NCBI GenBank assembly: GCA_003551675.1
Contig: PUNG01000062.1
Location: forward strand, 1 to 57,300
Direction: 5' to 3'
From: Thermoplasmata archaeon
GTDB taxonomy: Archaea > Thermoplasmatota > Thermoplasmata > Halarchaeoplasmatales > Halarchaeoplasmataceae
Length of the DNA: 57,300 nt
The notes under the pieces are model-generated. The model saw nothing but the letters and a program-made list of their open reading frames with translations, searched no databases and had not been told where the DNA came from. The position numbers and the translations under genes are program-made. Below are positions 10,145-46,254 of the stretch, piece by piece. Positions within the stretch are counted from its first letter, which is position 1. Each line of letters begins with the position of its first letter.

Positions 10145-12961
10145 ATGTTGATCGACGAGGAAGAGTGTTTGAGGAATCTCGAAAAGATGAGCAGAAAGAA
10201 GTTCGAGAGTATCTGCTTGGAACTGTTGGAGATCATGGGTTTTCATATCTCAGACGTAAAATCGTTGAGTGGAGATATCGTCGCCGAAGGAAGATTAGAA
10301 AAAGAGGATGAAAGACCACTAGATTACATAATCAAGTGTACCCGGTCCGGAGGCGATGTGAAAGTAGAGATAGAGAGCTTGAAAAAGATGATGACGGCAA
10401 GATCCCACGGCCTTCTATTGACCACCAAAAAGATCGATGCTGAAATAGACGATTCCGATATAGAGGTTGCGGGTGGAGATAGATTTTATAGGCTATTAGA
10501 TAATTTTGGTCTTTTATCGAGGGTTGAAAAGAAGGAAGAGAAGAGAAGTGGAGGTAGACTTCTTAGAGAAGGGGATCACTGCCTCTCCGAAGGAAATTAC
10601 GAGCAGGCTTTAGAGTATTACGAACGGGCCATAGCCGAGGAAAACGAGCCGGCCCTGGCTTTTTTAAAAAAGGGCTTGATATTCTTTGAAAAGAATAGTT
10701 TGGAGGAAGCGGAGGAGGCTTTTAGAGATTCTTTGGACCTAGATCCCGATAATCCCGAAGCATGGGTCAAATTAGGACAGATACATGATGGTAGAGACGA
10801 AAAGGAAAAGGCCGTAGAACTCTACGATAAGGCCCTTGATTACGACGAAGATAGTATAGAAGCCTGGAAAGGCAAGGGTAAGACGCTCCGAGATCTAGAA
10901 CTATACGACGAAGCTGTTCTCTGCTTCGATAGGATGATCGAGATAGAACCTAAAAATTTTAAAGCTTGGAACGAAAAAGGCCTGTGCCACTTGAATAAAA
11001 GAGAATACAAAGAAGCACTGGATGCGTTCAACAGCGCCTTGACCATACAGCCAAGGTTTGAAGAAGCTATGTTGAATAAGGCGTTGGTGTTCGAAAAACT
11101 CGGTAAGATCAAACAGGCTTTGTCCGTAGCAGAAAAGTTGGTGGATTCTAACGCAAAAAATGCGGAATATCACTACATAAAAGGTGCATATCTGGAAAAA
11201 TTAGGGGAGAATAAAGACGCGTGGAGATCCATCCAAAGAGCGCTGCAGCTCGATCCTGGGCACAAAAAAGCCCAAGAACTGCAGTTCATCCTTCAAGAAA
11301 AACTTGGAAGAGGCACTGACACGTCTATAGTGGGAGAAGCACGGCAAAGGATCACTTCAAAGGAGATAGAGGAAGAGATAAAGGCTGCCGTGGGAACCGA
11401 AGACCAAGGAAAACTCAGCATAATCCCAAAGGGCGGTGGAAAATTTGAACTCAAGATAGACGATAAAAAGGAAGAGATCACCGAGCTGAAGGGGAAAAAG
11501 GATGAGTTGGAGAAAGATCTAGAAAAGAGAGAGAAAGAGATCACGGATCTAGCTGACGAATTAGAAGACACGAAAAGGAGATTGAAGGAAAAGGAAGAAA
11601 AAGAGGATGGAGAGGCGGAAGCTAGTGAAAAAGTCAGCGAGTTGATGGACCGTGAAGAGGAATTGGAAGGACTGCTCAGCGGAAAAAAAGAAGATATTCA
11701 GCAGTTAGAAGATGAAAAATACGAGCTCGAAAATACGGTAAGAGATCTAGAAGAACAGATCGCAAAATGGGAAAACATAGAAAAAGAGATGGAAAAGAAA
11801 GAAAAAGATATAGATCAATTGGTAGGTGAAAGGGAAGTCCTGAAAAGCAAATTGAACAAAAAAAGAGAGGAAACTAAAGAACTTATGGACCGATTAGAAA
11901 TGTTGAAGAAAGAAACTGAGAGAAAAGACAAAAAAATAAAAGAGTTGAAGGATAAAGAAAAGTACTACAAGGGGATGATAGAGGGGGAAGAGGTGGTTGG
12001 CGCTTACATGGATCGAAACATATATGGAGAAAGGAGAGGGGTGAAGGAGGCACGGTTGTTATGGACCATGGGGGAAAACAGTGAAGCTCTGGAACATGCA
12101 CCAAGAGTGGACCATAAAAGAGCATATAATATCATGGGTTGTTGCTTCTATGATCTTGGAGACATGGACTCCGCCGAAGATATGTTCGAAAATGCCCGAC
12201 CGTGGCTTTTGTCGGATCTCAATCTCGAGGAGATGTATTACAACCGTGGTAGATATGAAGATGCCGGGAGTCTGGTAGAAGAGTTGAATCAAAGGAAAGG
12301 CGCCTTTGAAGATGTATTATCTTTTTTAGAGAGAGGTAGTGAAACTCTGCGTCGTTTGGAAAGATTAGGGTCCGCTGTAGAGCTTTATGAGAAAGCGGAA
12401 AGATTAGAAAGTGACCCCTTAGTGGATTTTGTCATGGCAAAGGCCAGATGTATAGTAAAAAAAGAGGGACTGAGTCAAGGTATAGGATCGCTTGAAAGTA
12501 TAGGATCTAAGGAAGATCATCTTGAGATTTTGAACCTTTTAGGTGTATTTTATCTTAAAGATAAGAAGTACAAGAAAAGTTTTGAAATATATTCGAAGAT
12601 GGTTGAAGAGGCAAAAAACGATCATCGGTACTTGAATAATCTCGGGTGTAGCGCTCATCATCTTGAGAAGTTCGATGAAGCCATGAACGCTTTTGAAGAC
12701 GCCCTAGGATCAAAACCAGATCACCGTATAATATTGAACAACCTTGGTTTTTGTCAGCTCGAGATGAATCTGGTCGACGCTGCCCTTGAGACCTTTAAGA
12801 GGGCCGTTGAAGTGAACAAAAAAGATCCTGTGAGCTGGTACAATAAAGGGATCGCGTTGAAAAGACTCGAAGACGAGGGGTGGCGTGAAGCGGTAGAGAG
12901 GGCCGTCGAATTGGAACCTGATTTTGAAGAAGCTAAAAAAATACTGAATGAAGAAGACTGA
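10145..12961 (+). CDS. Large TPR protein: N-terminal Mrr/restriction-endonuclease-like domain, TPR array, long coiled coil, second TPR array
   Basis: N-term SRKKFESICLELLEIMGF..GDIVAEG..YIIKCTR..GLLLTT resembles the Mrr fold; repeated TPR signatures (ALEYYERAIAEEN, AVELYDKALDYDEDSIEAW); KE-rich heptad region. Confidence 0.85.
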   Translation: MLIDEEECLRNLEKMSRKKFESICLELLEIMGFHISDVKSLSGDIVAEGRLEKEDERPLDYIIKCTRSGGDVKVEIESLKKMMTARSHGLLLTTKKIDAEIDDSDIEVAGGDRFYRLLDNFGLLSRVEKKEEKRSGGRLLREGDHCLSEGNYEQALEYYERAIAEENEPALAFLKKGLIFFEKNSLEEAEEAFRDSLDLDPDNPEAWVKLGQIHDGRDEKEKAVELYDKALDYDEDSIEAWKGKGKTLRDLELYDEAVLCFDRMIEIEPKNFKAWNEKGLCHLNKREYKEALDAFNSALTIQPRFEEAMLNKALVFEKLGKIKQALSVAEKLVDSNAKNAEYHYIKGAYLEKLGENKDAWRSIQRALQLDPGHKKAQELQFILQEKLGRGTDTSIVGEARQRITSKEIEEEIKAAVGTEDQGKLSIIPKGGGKFELKIDDKKEEITELKGKKDELEKDLEKREKEITDLADELEDTKRRLKEKEEKEDGEAEASEKVSELMDREEELEGLLSGKKEDIQQLEDEKYELENTVRDLEEQIAKWENIEKEMEKKEKDIDQLVGEREVLKSKLNKKREETKELMDRLEMLKKETERKDKKIKELKDKEKYYKGMIEGEEVVGAYMDRNIYGERRGVKEARLLWTMGENSEALEHAPRVDHKRAYNIMGCCFYDLGDMDSAEDMFENARPWLLSDLNLEEMYYNRGRYEDAGSLVEELNQRKGAFEDVLSFLERGSETLRRLERLGSAVELYEKAERLESDPLVDFVMAKARCIVKKEGLSQGIGSLESIGSKEDHLEILNLLGVFYLKDKKYKKSFEIYSKMVEEAKNDHRYLNNLGCSAHHLEKFDEAMNAFEDALGSKPDHRIILNNLGFCQLEMNLVDAALETFKRAVEVNKKDPVSWYNKGIALKRLEDEGWREAVERAVELEPDFEEAKKILNEED

Positions 12962-40661: not shown

Positions 40662-41759
40662 CTAAGAGGGACTTTTAGCAGTTCCTTCATCTTTCTTAAT
40701 TTTCGGGAACCAATGTCGAGTTTTCAGACATATCTGTACGATTATCAGCATTATCGGTACCTCTATCAACAGACCCGTCACCGCCGTCAATGTAGCCAAA
40801 GAATCGATACCGAAGATCGTTATAGACATGGCGATAGCCACTTCGAAATGGTTGCTTGTCGCTATCTGAGCCGTCGGTGCAGCATCTTCATATGGTAGTC
40901 CTACTTTTTTAGCGGTCCAGTATGAGATGATGAACATTATCATGAATTGTATGATCAAGGGAACAGCGATCATAAGGACTATGATCGGTTGATCTAGTAT
41001 GGTTCTAGAATGAGGCGAAACTATAACAACGATGGTGAAGAGAAGCGCCAAAACCGACACGTAATGAAGTTTATCGGTGAACTGGTCGAACCATTCTCGC
41101 CCTCGCCGCTGTATAAGCTTCTTCCTGGTGACGTAACCGGCCGCGAGAGGCAGACCGATGTAGGCTAGCACACCGAAGGCTATCTGGCCCGCAGGCACTC
41201 CGACACCTTCTCCAGCAACGTCCGCTATGGGTAAGAGTATGATAGCAAGAGGGGCATAAAGCACCAGCATGGAGAGGGAATTTATCGCAGTCACCACGAT
41301 AGTATGTCCCATATTACCTCTAGAAAGATAGGACCATACCAAGACCATGGCGGTACACGGCGCTATACCCAAGAGTATCATCCCTCCGATTATAGGTCCG
41401 ATCTGATCCTGTGTCAGCCATGGAGCAAATATGACAGCAAAGAAAAACCATGCAAGGCCCGCTTTCAGGAACGGTTTTATCCCCCAGTTGAGTCCTAAAG
41501 TGGTCAGGATCGGTTTGGTCGACTTCCCCGCTCGGATGATCTTTTGGAAAGGTGTCTGGACCATTATAGGATAGATCATCAGGAAAAGGACTATCACCAC
41601 TGGAACAGAGTAACCTGAAACTTCAAAGGCCTCGAAAGTCTCCGCCAGACCTGGATATGCATTTCCCAATACTAGCGCGATCACCATGCAGATTCCGACC
41701 CAAACCGTAAGATATCTTTCGAAGAAACCGAGTTCATATCCTTCCGACATGATCAGCAC
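40662..41759 (-). CDS. acr3: ACR3-family arsenite efflux transporter
   Basis: RYLTVWVGICMVIALVLGNAYPGLAETFEAFEVSGYSVPVVIVLFLMIYPIMVQ; LLGIAPCTAMVLVWSYLSRG; TSNHFEVAIAMSITIFG. Confidence 0.94.
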   Translation of the reverse strand: MLIMSEGYELGFFERYLTVWVGICMVIALVLGNAYPGLAETFEAFEVSGYSVPVVIVLFLMIYPIMVQTPFQKIIRAGKSTKPILTTLGLNWGIKPFLKAGLAWFFFAVIFAPWLTQDQIGPIIGGMILLGIAPCTAMVLVWSYLSRGNMGHTIVVTAINSLSMLVLYAPLAIILLPIADVAGEGVGVPAGQIAFGVLAYIGLPLAAGYVTRKKLIQRRGREWFDQFTDKLHYVSVLALLFTIVVIVSPHSRTILDQPIIVLMIAVPLIIQFMIMFIISYWTAKKVGLPYEDAAPTAQIATSNHFEVAIAMSITIFGIDSLATLTAVTGLLIEVPIMLIIVQICLKTRHWFPKIKKDEGTAKSPS

Positions 41760-42028
41760 CTTTTTTCCAATCTATCTCCCAGCTCTTTTCCTTTCTCTAA
41801 TATCTCTATTATCTCGGGTTCTGAAACTTTGTAATAGATACGTTTCCCCTTTCTTTTCTTCTCGATGAGGCCGCAGTCGTACAGATCCTTTAGATGATGG
41901 CTGGTCAGCGATTGTTCTAGGTCCAAACATTCAGCTATCTCGTTAACGCACTTTTCCTCCTTCCCTATGCAGTAAAGTATCTTTCTTCGATTGGCATTGT
42001 TTAGGCACTTGTATAAATGACCGTTCAT
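41753..42028 (-). CDS. arsR: ArsR-family transcriptional regulator
   Basis: Winged HTH: CVNEIAECLDLEQSLTSHHLKDLYDCGLIEKKRKGKRIYYKV; overlaps acr3. Confidence 0.93.
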   Translation of the reverse strand: MNGHLYKCLNNANRRKILYCIGKEEKCVNEIAECLDLEQSLTSHHLKDLYDCGLIEKKRKGKRIYYKVSEPEIIEILEKGKELGDRLEKRC

Positions 42029-42098: not shown

Positions 42099-43118
42099 TC
42101 AAACTATCCTGTGTCCAAACACCTCGACATCCTCTTTTTTTATCAGATACATGGTACTCCCAGCAGATACTAAAAGAGGAAACCAGAATGTTATCGCCCT
42201 TGCTAATAAGGCTATAGCCATGCCCTCGGCAAAAAGGAAACCGTTCAGTCTCAAAACGAGCGCCATGCTTCCTTCGAAAGTGCCGAGACCGCCGGGCGTT
42301 ATGGGTAACATACTGACCAGATATGCGGCGTAGGTAACGACCACTGCAAGAAGAAAACTGATCTGGATTCCAAGAACGTGTGCGGTCACATAGATCTTTA
42401 AAGGATACAATACCCAAACCAAGAGAGAGACCATAAAAAGACTGTTGCGGGTCTTAGGCGTGAGGATATTTTGGGTCGAATTTGAAGCTCTTTGAACAAA
42501 ACAAACCGCTGCTCTGAATTTGCCGTATAACTTATCAAAACCTGAAGGTCCGATATCTAGATGTTCCGGCAATCCTCTACTTTTTCCTTCATGATAGATG
42601 AGTAAAAAAAGAAGAAACGTGATAACAGCTAACAAGGCGAAAGAAGCGTAGACGAGAAAAGGCATAGTATAGAAGAAGGAAGTTAGCACTAGAGTCAAAA
42701 GACACAATAGAAGAAAAGGAACTAACGATATGTACTTGTGAGCTAAAAGTAAAGAAGTCAGCTTTTCATAGCCTATACCTCTGAGATGATTAAAAAGATA
42801 AAGCTTGGTGACTTCACCTCCCATCTTGGACGAGGGGGTCACGCTTTCGACAAAACCGCCTGTCTGATTTATCAAAAAAATTTTACTGAAAGGTATCTTC
42901 TCCGCACTTTCTCTGAACAGATAATACCATTGATAAGAAGTCAAAGAAAGAGTGATCAATTGAAGGGAACAGAGTGATACGATAAAGAGTAACAATATAA
43001 AGATATCTAAGTTCGATAAGATGGATACGATCTCTCCAAAACCGCTGATGATCGTTATGAAGGTTAGGAGAATTATACCAAAAACCCATAACAACAGTTT
43101 TTTATTCATGATCTTCAC
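42099..43118 (-). CDS. UPF0104/LPG-synthase-TM-like flippase-family membrane protein
   Basis: Multi-TM; VESVTPSSKMGGEVTKLYLF and LVSMLPITPGGLGTFEGSM signatures. Confidence 0.88.
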   Translation of the reverse strand: MKIMNKKLLLWVFGIILLTFITIISGFGEIVSILSNLDIFILLLFIVSLCSLQLITLSLTSYQWYYLFRESAEKIPFSKIFLINQTGGFVESVTPSSKMGGEVTKLYLFNHLRGIGYEKLTSLLLAHKYISLVPFLLLCLLTLVLTSFFYTMPFLVYASFALLAVITFLLFLLIYHEGKSRGLPEHLDIGPSGFDKLYGKFRAAVCFVQRASNSTQNILTPKTRNSLFMVSLLVWVLYPLKIYVTAHVLGIQISFLLAVVVTYAAYLVSMLPITPGGLGTFEGSMALVLRLNGFLFAEGMAIALLARAITFWFPLLVSAGSTMYLIKKEDVEVFGHRIV

Positions 43119-43119
43119 T

Positions 43120-43659
43120 TTAATGATCGAATAGGACTGATCTATTGAAGGTCAACATATTATGTTTCACTTCACCTTTAGGTTCACGATCAGGTATTTC
43201 GCCGTATGTATCTTCGAACCTTTTTCTCGGTGCGCGCACGATAACGGGACCATTTCTTTCAAAAAGCAAGTTTTCCACAACCCGTAGCTTCGGCTCGACT
43301 TGGAGAGCGACCAAAGCCTTATCGAAGTGCACGGGAACATCTTCCATGCAGTCGTCTTTCAAAAAATGTATCCGGTGGGATAACCCCATAGACTGGACTA
43401 ATTTTTTCCCTCTAATCAACGCCGTTTTATCTTTATCTACAGCGTAAACTTCGGCACCACTGACCTCTGCTAAGTGAACTGCGGTAAAAGGTAGTGCGCC
43501 GCAGCCGAGGTTCAAAATCGTATCGTTCGAAGAGATATCTCCTAGTTTTATCTCCCTTTTCACCACGTTTTCGTATGGTGCTGCGTACAACCTGAACAGG
43601 GAATGATTATCGTGAAGGACTTTTTCTAAAGACGCGGTAAATCGCTGTATCGCTTTCAT
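43120..43659 (-). CDS. Nicotianamine-synthase-like / SAM-dependent Rossmann protein
   Basis: LNLGCGALPFTAVHLAEVSGAEVYAVDKDKTALIRGKKLVQ; GCGxLPxT resembles the NAS GSGPLPLT motif. Confidence 0.7.
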   Translation of the reverse strand: MKAIQRFTASLEKVLHDNHSLFRLYAAPYENVVKREIKLGDISSNDTILNLGCGALPFTAVHLAEVSGAEVYAVDKDKTALIRGKKLVQSMGLSHRIHFLKDDCMEDVPVHFDKALVALQVEPKLRVVENLLFERNGPVIVRAPRKRFEDTYGEIPDREPKGEVKHNMLTFNRSVLFDH

Positions 43660-43693
43660 GTATGAGTATATTTACCTATCATGCATTTAAATC

Positions 43694-43709
43694 TTTAGGT
43701 TAACCTAAA
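43694..43709. promoter_or_regulatory. Perfect 16-bp palindrome TTTAGGTTAACCTAAA, DtxR/IdeR-like iron box
   Basis: In the divergent intergenic region between the two NAS-like genes; matches half-site TTAGGTTA; abuts TATA-like CTTTATAA. Confidence 0.8.
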
Positions 43710-43743
43710 CTTTATAAACCTCCTCTCTTTTACCCTTGTTAAC

Positions 43744-44556
43744 ATGGTCACACCATCGGAAAGCTTTGAGAGCGCAGATAAAAAGATGATAAAATCCATC
43801 GAAAAGCTCGGTTGTCGTTTCAAAAAATTCGGTAGCATTTATCACAAAGTCTTCTATGAAGATGTTATCGAGAAGGAGCTTGAACTTGCAGAATTAAAGA
43901 GCGATGCGGATATAATAGTGGTAGGATGCGGCCCTTTTCCTATGACCGTTCAAAATCTAGCCGAAAAAGGTTTCAACGTCACCGGTTTGGATCGAGATCC
44001 GAGTGCGATCCGGCATTCTAAAGAGATGTTGGCTGATGTCGAATTTATCTTGGACGACGGACGAAACATCGATTACTCAGATTACGATGCTGTCTGGATC
44101 CCCTTCCATGTAGAACCCAAGGACGATATCTTGTGTAATATATTCAAAGAGATAAAGCTCGGTGGAAAGGTCGTTTATAGAGTCCCCAAAAACCATCTTA
44201 AATGCTTTTACCGCTCCGTGGATCCCTCGGCATACACAAAAAAACACTGCTGCGTTGACCAGAGTATGGGTAAAAGATCCATCGTGGCCGTTAAGGAAAA
44301 GAAGTGTAGGCAAAACTGTAATGAGAGCAAAAGATCCCCTATCTCCTGCCGTTCTTTAAAAACGGTAAAGATCGGTGAGGAAGCTAAGGTCCTATCCTGT
44401 CCTAAACATTCCTGTTTGAACGCTTTGGGTATCAGAGAGGGAAAAAGAGTCAAGATGAAAAGTAGACAACCTTTAGGTGGGCCGCTTCTCGTCTCTGTTG
44501 AGGGTAGAGAGGCCGCCATAGACAGAGACATCGCAGGAAACATAGCAGTGGCGTGA
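43744..44556 (+). CDS. Nicotianamine-synthase-like/SAM-dependent domain fused to C-terminal FeoA domain
   Basis: IIVVGCGPFPMTVQNLAEKGFNVTGLDRDPSAIRHSKEML; Cys-rich linker; FeoA-like SLKTVKIGEEAKVLSCPKHSCLNALGIREGKRVKMKSRQPLGGPLLVSVEGREAAIDRDIAGNIAV. Confidence 0.82.
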   Translation: MVTPSESFESADKKMIKSIEKLGCRFKKFGSIYHKVFYEDVIEKELELAELKSDADIIVVGCGPFPMTVQNLAEKGFNVTGLDRDPSAIRHSKEMLADVEFILDDGRNIDYSDYDAVWIPFHVEPKDDILCNIFKEIKLGGKVVYRVPKNHLKCFYRSVDPSAYTKKHCCVDQSMGKRSIVAVKEKKCRQNCNESKRSPISCRSLKTVKIGEEAKVLSCPKHSCLNALGIREGKRVKMKSRQPLGGPLLVSVEGREAAIDRDIAGNIAVA

Positions 44557-44565
44557 GGACCTTTT

Positions 44566-46254
44566 ATGGAAGTACTTCTGATAGGACCTCCAAATGTAGG
44601 AAAAAGTGTTCTTTTCAATCGTTTGACCGGCTTAGATGTAGGCATGGCAAATTATCCCGGTACTACGGTGGATTTTAAAAAGGGAAAAGCTACGGCCGGT
44701 GAAAAAGAGTACGAACTCATCGATGTTCCCGGCACCTATTCTTTAGACGCCTCTAATCAGGCGGAACGTATAGCGGTGGAGATGTTAGAGGTTGACCCTG
44801 CCGGAGTCGTGTGTGTTCTTGACGCTAAAAATTTAGAGAGCAGCCTATATCTCCTCATGCAGGTTCTAGAGAAAGATATCCCTACTGTTGCAGTGATAAA
44901 CAGGGTAGACCTGATAGAAGAAAGTCTTGACGTCGAATATCTATCCAAAACGATGGATATACCTGTGATCACAACGGTTGCAACCAAGGGACGTGGCATC
45001 GGCAAATTGAAGGAATCGATCAACGATCTGGTGGAAGGAAAAATAGATACCAGTCGTAAAGAAAACAAAGCTGACTGGGATCTAGCCGAAGATCTGGATA
45101 AAAATGTAAAAAAAGGGTCTAAAGACGACTATAAAAGTAGAAAGAACCGTTGGAGCGATCTTCTAGTAAAACCTTTTCCTGGGATACCTTTAGCTTTTTT
45201 GATATTAGGTTTGATGTTCCTTTTGGTTATAGGTGCTGGCTTAGCGATGAGACGATTCATATTTTTACCTTTTTTTGATAGTGTTATATTTCCGCCAATC
45301 ATAGCAGCAGTAGAACGTTTTACAGCCGAGGGCACTGTTCGAAATATACTGGTAGGGGAGTATGGATTTTTGATCAAAGCCATCGAATGGCCCATCGGCC
45401 TTGTGTTGCCGTATATAATTTCTTTCTACACCGCTTTAAGCATATTGGAGGATAGTGGGTATATGCCTAGACTGGCTGTACTATTGGATGGTCTGTTCAC
45501 CAAGATGGGACTCTCCGGTTCCGCCATAATACCTCTTCTACTGGGTTACGGGTGCGCCATCCCTTCTATTATGTCTACAAGGACCATGACCGATAAAAAG
45601 AAAAAGATGATTGTATCCGCGATGGTCTGCTTATCGGTACCGTGTGTAGCCCAGTCCGGTGCCTTTATCGCTCTTCTGGCCGAGCGTTCCATCATGTTGG
45701 TGTTTCTGATATTCTTGTTTTCTTTGAGCGCAGCTTTTTTATCCGGTCTGTTACTAGGTAAATTATTCAAAGTCGAAAAAACTCCCATGATACAGGAGGT
45801 ACCAGAACTTCTAGTTCCCGACTGGAAGATGTTTGGAAAAAAGTTATGGATAAGGGTAAAGCACTTTCTTACCAACGGCGCGGTTCCGATGATATATATC
45901 ATCGGAGCTGCCGCCGTTCTCTACGAAACAGGTATACTAGCCCACATAGGCATGTTATTGGAGCCATTGGTAACGGGATGGCTTGGTCTACCTTCCGAGG
46001 CGTCCACCCCTCTCATACTAGGAATATTTAGAAGAGAACTAGCGGTACTACCTCTGTTGGAGATGAACCTTACCAACCTGCAGCTCTTCGTGGGTGCTGT
46101 GATAGCCCTCTTTTACGTACCGTGTGTGGCGGTTTTAGGTGTGATCGCAAAAGAGTTCGGTGCTAAGGTTTCCGCGGGCATCTTGGCTTTTACCGTTATA
46201 TTTTCCATGTTGATCGGCGGTTTGATATTTCAGATAGGAAGCATCTTACTTTAG
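44566..46254 (+). CDS. feoB: Ferrous iron transporter FeoB
   Basis: GPPNVGKSVLFNRLTG, NYPGTTVD, DVPGTYSL G-domain motifs; Gate motifs LLLGYGCAIPSIMSTRT, FYVPCVAVLGV. Confidence 0.97.
   Translation: MEVLLIGPPNVGKSVLFNRLTGLDVGMANYPGTTVDFKKGKATAGEKEYELIDVPGTYSLDASNQAERIAVEMLEVDPAGVVCVLDAKNLESSLYLLMQVLEKDIPTVAVINRVDLIEESLDVEYLSKTMDIPVITTVATKGRGIGKLKESINDLVEGKIDTSRKENKADWDLAEDLDKNVKKGSKDDYKSRKNRWSDLLVKPFPGIPLAFLILGLMFLLVIGAGLAMRRFIFLPFFDSVIFPPIIAAVERFTAEGTVRNILVGEYGFLIKAIEWPIGLVLPYIISFYTALSILEDSGYMPRLAVLLDGLFTKMGLSGSAIIPLLLGYGCAIPSIMSTRTMTDKKKKMIVSAMVCLSVPCVAQSGAFIALLAERSIMLVFLIFLFSLSAAFLSGLLLGKLFKVEKTPMIQEVPELLVPDWKMFGKKLWIRVKHFLTNGAVPMIYIIGAAAVLYETGILAHIGMLLEPLVTGWLGLPSEASTPLILGIFRRELAVLPLLEMNLTNLQLFVGAVIALFYVPCVAVLGVIAKEFGAKVSAGILAFTVIFSMLIGGLIFQIGSILL

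Follow-up and report, generated by a model that had tools for sequence, protein, structure and literature searches.

What would an archaeal ferrous-iron locus do with two proteins resembling nicotianamine synthase (NAS), one of them fused to FeoA? The question is raised by positions 42099-46254 of a 57.3-kb contig stretch, referred to throughout as the window, from a Thermoplasmata metagenome-assembled genome (MAG; G000:C54), whose closest named relatives are two further Thermoplasmata archaeon MAG contigs, JAFDUB010000022.1 (L034) and PUPH01000012.1 (L035). The window genome is 2.29 Mb in size and 94% complete. The answer that we favor, and hold to be about evenly poised between right and wrong, is that the locus is an iron-starvation-induced ferrous-uptake cassette whose two minimal NAS-type transferases, one of them held at the ferrous iron transporter FeoB, would make a small Fe(II) ligand.

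The cassette has two divergent arms. On the plus strand, P1 (43744..44556; 270 aa), comprising a NAS-like Rossmann domain (residues ~14-185, with the motifs VGCGPFPMT and FHVEPK) and a C-terminal FeoA domain (residues 204-269), is followed by FeoB (44566..46254; 562 aa; PF02421, PF07670, and PF07664), which falls in a cassette-specific FeoB clade. On the minus strand, the compact NAS-like protein P2 (43120..43659; 179 aa), with LGCGALPFT and LQVEPK, is followed by P3 (42099..43118), the final gene of that arm, which encodes a flippase-like protein with multiple transmembrane (TM) segments (LPG_synthase_TM, PF03706; TIGR00374) and starts either at a GTG 1 nt after P2 (42099-43118) or at an ATG 10 nt after it (42099-43109). 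The P1 and P2 starts are separated by 84 bp, within which lies a single palindromic iron-type box, TTTAGGTTAACCTAAA (43694..43709, no strand), with the DtxR/IdeR half-site TTAGG-N4-CCTAA. All of these elements had been named in a first-pass annotation made from the sequence, and each is present.

Judged by profile comparisons and predicted structures, the NAS-like assignment of P1 and P2 is real. Sequence searches of the PDB returned the opine-metallophore enzyme CntL and the Methanothermobacter thermonicotianamine synthase (MtNAS) at or near the top, at 3e-6 and 5e-6, respectively, with P2 (phmmer) and at 5e-4 to 8e-4 with P1, and among NCBIfam models CntL ranked first for both proteins (2.6e-10 for P2), far under its equivalog cut-off. 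A profile of 32 compact relatives matched CntL at 8.6e-21 and MtNAS at 9e-20, compared with 1.4e-9 for the best other methyltransferase, and profile-profile alignment (hhalign) of the compact family against six bacterial opine-metallophore NAS proteins gave an E value of 1.7e-22. With the AlphaFold2 (AF2) model of P2 (pLDDT 79, pTM 0.78), the top four Foldseek matches were all MtNAS (TMq 0.70-0.77), and the next fold relatives reached about 0.62-0.65; the P1 model is weak (pLDDT 61, pTM 0.47), with only its Rossmann and FeoA parts interpretable, and MtNAS was likewise its first match (7e-7). The kinship to NAS that had been proposed from short motifs thus stands, and ordinary methyltransferases are the best structural match of neither model. 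The EPK sequence common to P1 and P2 is a family motif, MtNAS having AEPKRRVFRNI at the equivalent place.

MtNAS has been proposed to use Glu81 and Tyr107 (PMC10491745), and mutating the corresponding Glu and Tyr abolished the activity of AtNAS1 (PMC10248798). By alignment, the candidate catalytic Glu and Tyr on the N-terminal helices are kept in the cassette proteins, as E12, Y25, Y29, and E36 (with GCGALPFT) in P2 and E20, Y33, Y38, and E45 (with GCGPFPMT) in P1. Specifically, hhalign pairs E12-K13 of P2 with the invariant E-K of bacterial NAS and places Y25 and E36 opposite an invariant Tyr and an invariant Glu, respectively, while Y29 of P2 and Y38 of P1 align with the MtNAS Tyr that lies seven residues before the conserved Glu. 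We infer that E12 of P2 is the equivalent of MtNAS Glu81; the acidic residue at this position (E20 in P1) is kept in 31 of 31 compact relatives having that region, and the Y25 and Y29 positions are Tyr in all tabulated FeoA-linked proteins. A SAM (S-adenosylmethionine)-site pattern typical of NAS members, G-x-G-x-x-P-x-T with a downstream K/R, R, Y motif, is also present, and G52, G54, P57, T59, D113, R142, and Y152 are invariant among the FeoA-linked rows.

The four genes travel together. Among 400 class genomes, eight carry the NAS-FeoA fusion: five belong to the family of the window genome, and the other three, in which mcrA is present, to a single genus of a methanogen family. These carriers are related, so that the counts are not independent events. 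P2 lies on the fusion contig in seven of the eight, the contig of the eighth (G005) ending inside P3, and at the threshold used P2 was found in none of the 392 class genomes without the fusion. The divergent order P3-P2/P1-FeoB is kept in four genomes (G000, G184, G410, and G610), and in the other four (G002, G005, G010, and G015) the genes are rearranged and mostly adjacent: G010 and G015 have arms that point towards one another, and G002 has a displaced P2. We reject chance adjacency on the grounds that this gene set comes back in differing orders, and its recurrence across the cassette genomes bears out the treatment of the four genes as one locus in the first-pass annotation. P1 and P2 each form a fully supported monophyletic group (100/98 and 100/99), and P3 is conserved at 42-50% identity in seven cassette genomes.

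The box between the arms has the sequence and spacing of the described DtxR/IdeR half-site, two CCTAA repeats with a 4-bp spacer (PMC10317159). It is the sole exact TTAGG-N4-CCTAA in the window (0.06-0.08 expected) and one of two in the whole window genome, the other (G000:C1:7505-7520, L094) lying directly upstream of the gene for a ZIP-family metal transporter, and it is flanked by TATA-like stretches, TTTATAAA towards P1 and TTTAAAT towards P2. Every one of the nine P1/P2 upstream regions read contains the half-site, exact in seven and with a single mismatch in two, where ~1e-4 exact sites per region would be expected; when P2 lies apart from P1 (G002, and G015 with its near-twin G010), P2 has a box of its own. 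The same half-site occurs 17 bp (G004) and 7 bp (G016) upstream of canonical feoA genes (L040 and L041), and the window genome has a gene for a DtxR-family regulator (L095:1952-2404). This half-site in common with canonical feo operons suggests that the cassette may be under iron-responsive regulation, as the name iron box had implied. At two mismatches, genome-wide matches to the box did not exceed the control (22 versus 32), and we therefore do not claim a wider iron regulon.

Boxes of this type were also seen elsewhere. Two exact copies (11698 and 11734 in L121, G610:C5) lie ~80-120 bp upstream of a minus-strand gene (10861-11616) that we take from its sequence to resemble larB, of the nickel-pincer cofactor, which suggests metal control of this gene too. 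A one-mismatch box lies directly upstream of a presumably DUF89-like gene in both L095 (G000:C85, position 1501) and L040 (G004, position 874).

FeoB transports Fe2+, not metallophores or chelates. The cassette FeoB is complete, with FeoB_N, two Gate stretches, and FeoB_C, and has its FeoA partner in the C-terminal domain of P1 (PF04023, E 3.6e-13), so that both features of a Feo system are present. Cassette FeoBs form a separate group, 62-82% identical among cassette genomes and ~32-37% identical to the canonical FeoBs of relatives; the methanogen carriers have both kinds. The window genome yielded no FeoA other than the P1 fusion and no FeoB other than that of the cassette, and ferrous uptake there may therefore depend on the fusion. 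FeoA is cytosolic, acts on the FeoB G-domain, and stabilizes GTP-bound FeoB (PMC8980893), from which the enzyme domain of P1 would be expected at the cytosolic side of FeoB. Such a position, inside the cell at the FeoB exit, speaks for a ligand kept within the cell no less than for a secreted one.

Nicotianamine-type ligands bind Fe(II), as is established in plants, and the simplest function combining these parts would be to trap iron on its exit from FeoB with an Fe(II) ligand inside the cell. Under low iron, a DtxR-type repressor would leave the half-site between the arms, as the box suggests, and both transcripts would be made. FeoB would then import Fe2+, while P1 and P2 would transfer the 3-amino-3-carboxypropyl group of S-adenosylmethionine onto an amine, giving a small nicotianamine-like Fe(II) ligand. 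The FeoA domain of P1 could hold the synthase on the cytosolic G-domain of FeoB, such that synthesis or loading of the ligand takes place at the channel exit and traps the emerging Fe2+; P2 might add a second transfer or perform a different one, by itself or as a pair with P1, and P3 might carry the product, either as such or in a membrane-linked form, to the other side of the membrane. More tentatively, we suggest as a possibility that P1 is a FeoA subunit with its own minimal nicotianamine-type synthase, that a chelator at the cytosolic mouth of FeoB pulls iron through, and that this four-gene cassette serves methanogenic and non-methanogenic Thermoplasmata alike. If true, the cassette would join two separately known iron strategies, direct Feo import of Fe2+ and SAM-derived amino-carboxylate metal ligands.

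Several observations weigh against an enzyme-assisted ferrous-uptake cassette. P1 and P2 lack most of the NAS N-terminal helical domain, namely its first ~70 residues, which contribute to the reaction chamber: in the P2 model the Rossmann domain is preceded by two helices, and profile matches start at position 66-77 of bacterial NAS. None of 380 phylum genomes yielded a complete NAS, every match beginning at Pfam position 72 or later. Single-sequence scores against the Pfam NAS model (PF03059) are 17.1 bits for P1 and 17.2 bits for P2, below the cut-off of 27.1, which is passed by the P1-homologous fusion of a methanogen relative (G184, 44.3) and by a free-standing compact relative (f30, 43.5); generic methyltransferase Pfam models score P1 and P2 equal to or above the NAS model. 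In view of the shortened N-terminal domain and the Pfam scores below the cut-off, P1 and P2 are called NAS-like here and not NAS proper. Further adverse points are that the exact half-site is absent from all examined loci with unlinked compact NAS-like genes, that several of these distant relatives lie among isoprenoid and lipid genes, that P3 belongs to a lipid-flippase family, that opine dehydrogenase (PF10100) was found in none of the eight cassette genomes (the control set likewise giving no match), and that neither an ABC/metallophore importer nor a DMT/MFS exporter adjoins the cassette in the window or in the relatives' loci. A widespread archaeal NAS-like family that is without most of the N-terminal domain and keeps the acidic candidate residue makes the minimal requirements of the NAS reaction testable.

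Since P3 is flippase-like and distant relatives of P1 and P2 lie near isoprenoid or lipid genes, a lipid-linked product is the main and a serious rival, which we consider unlikely. Here, P1 and P2 would modify a lipid- or polyprenyl-linked substrate, giving it an aminocarboxypropyl headgroup much as in betaine lipids, and the resulting lipid would be flipped outward by P3, with iron limitation triggering a membrane change or the headgroup presenting Fe2+ to FeoB. P3 matches LPG_synthase_TM at E 5.8e-42 (144.6 bits, cut-off 33.4) and TIGR00374 at 113 (cut-off 43) and adjoins P2 in most carriers; by Pfam and NCBIfam comparison it consists of the flippase TM region only, with no aminoacyl-transferase domain of MprF. 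Distant compact NAS-like genes of another class similarly sit beside LPG_synthase_TM, UbiA, and mevalonate-pathway genes, although these have neither iron box nor FeoA, so that their context may not transfer. In addition, the NAS enzymes covered in a review (PMC10491745) use free amino acids or their SAM-derived equivalents, and the betaine-lipid enzyme BtaA is described there as seemingly non-homologous to NAS.

These distant genes are of interest in their own right. In that other class of the phylum (L080, L084, L085, and L087), free-standing compact NAS-like genes occur, often two per genome, with AcnX, UbiD, GHMP kinase (mevalonate pathway), UbiA, B12-radical SAM, PaaK-like, and LPG_synthase_TM genes as neighbors, the last of these in L080, L085, and L087. 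A lipid pathway employing NAS-like enzymes is possible there.

It is quite unlikely, in our view, that the NAS-like part of P1 serves chiefly to sense SAM or a metabolite and, as a regulator sitting on FeoA, to tune the FeoB GTPase, with P2 as its partner and little or no product. The stabilization of GTP-bound FeoB by FeoA (PMC8980893), the shortened N-terminal domain and seemingly incomplete reaction chamber, and the co-occurrence of P1 and P2 wherever the contig permits the test would all fit such a sensor; however, all tabulated FeoA-linked proteins are invariant at the Glu, the Tyr, and the SAM-site positions (G-x-G, P-x-T, and D), which would be unexpected were the sensor degenerate.

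A secreted metallophore, as proposed in the first-pass annotation, would require P1 and P2 to synthesize the ligand, P3 to export it, and the returned iron to be released before entering via FeoB, and we regard this as very unlikely. Bacterial NAS-like enzymes do serve secreted opine metallophores, as in a Vibrio plasmid operon with an ABC importer, NAS, opine dehydrogenase, and DMT exporter (L152); at the cassette, by contrast, importer, opine dehydrogenase, and DMT/MFS exporter are all missing, and the eight genomes yielded no opine dehydrogenase, nor did the control set. The claim of a ligand made and moved by one arm and taken up by the Feo arm thus exceeds the data, given that no importer is present at the locus, that FeoB carries Fe2+ and does not import chelates, and that P3 is of a lipid-flippase family. 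Least probable of all is that P1 and P2 simply methylate a different molecule, as ordinary methyltransferases do, and resemble NAS only in their common Rossmann fold; this would suit the single-sequence Pfam scores, yet profile, profile-profile, and structural comparisons all rank NAS first, by ~ten orders of magnitude for the profile.

Two further candidates were set aside: a third paralogue in the window genome (L003, G000:C4), which proved to be a generic methyltransferase, and a Cys-rich linker in P1 as a metal site, the cysteines being unconserved in G002, G184, and G410. Directly left of the cassette (window positions 40662-42028) lie an ArsR-type regulator and then an SBF-family transporter, presumably ACR3-like, which are not co-conserved with it.

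The components are of known kinds; their combination and the compact NAS form are undescribed as far as the open literature shows, in which we found no description of NAS-like proteins with FeoA or FeoB in archaea (subscription papers fall outside this coverage, and a prior description is possible). The best structural match, MtNAS (PDB 3fpe/3fpg/3o31), has the SAM site, EPK, and candidate catalytic Glu and Tyr in common with P1 and P2, and its Tyr-5-Tyr-7-Glu spacing recurs in P1; MtNAS differs in its complete N-terminal helical domain, with ~100 residues ahead of the matched part, and in being without the FeoA domain that P1 carries. The best sequence match, the CntL or opine-metallophore NAS family (e.g., L152), shares the E-K...Y...E motif of the N-terminal helices, whereas CntL-type loci carry the opine dehydrogenase, ABC importer, and DMT/MFS exporter that the cassette does not. 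P3 matches the whole TM region of LPG_synthase_TM/TIGR00374, the flippase half of MprF; unlike MprF, it is without the aminoacyl-transferase domain and has NAS-like and Feo genes as neighbors. Compared by sequence, the box has the bases and spacing of the DtxR/IdeR half-site, but not the full 19-bp double site (PMC10317159). The cassette is like the FeoAB system, including FeoA-FeoB fusions, in its FeoA domain and complete FeoB GTPase/permease, and its half-site is that of relatives' canonical feo operons. The role of FeoA is still debated, and whereas in known FeoAB systems FeoA stands alone or is fused to FeoB, here it is fused to a NAS-like enzyme, a natural fusion that offers a direct handle on what FeoA does.

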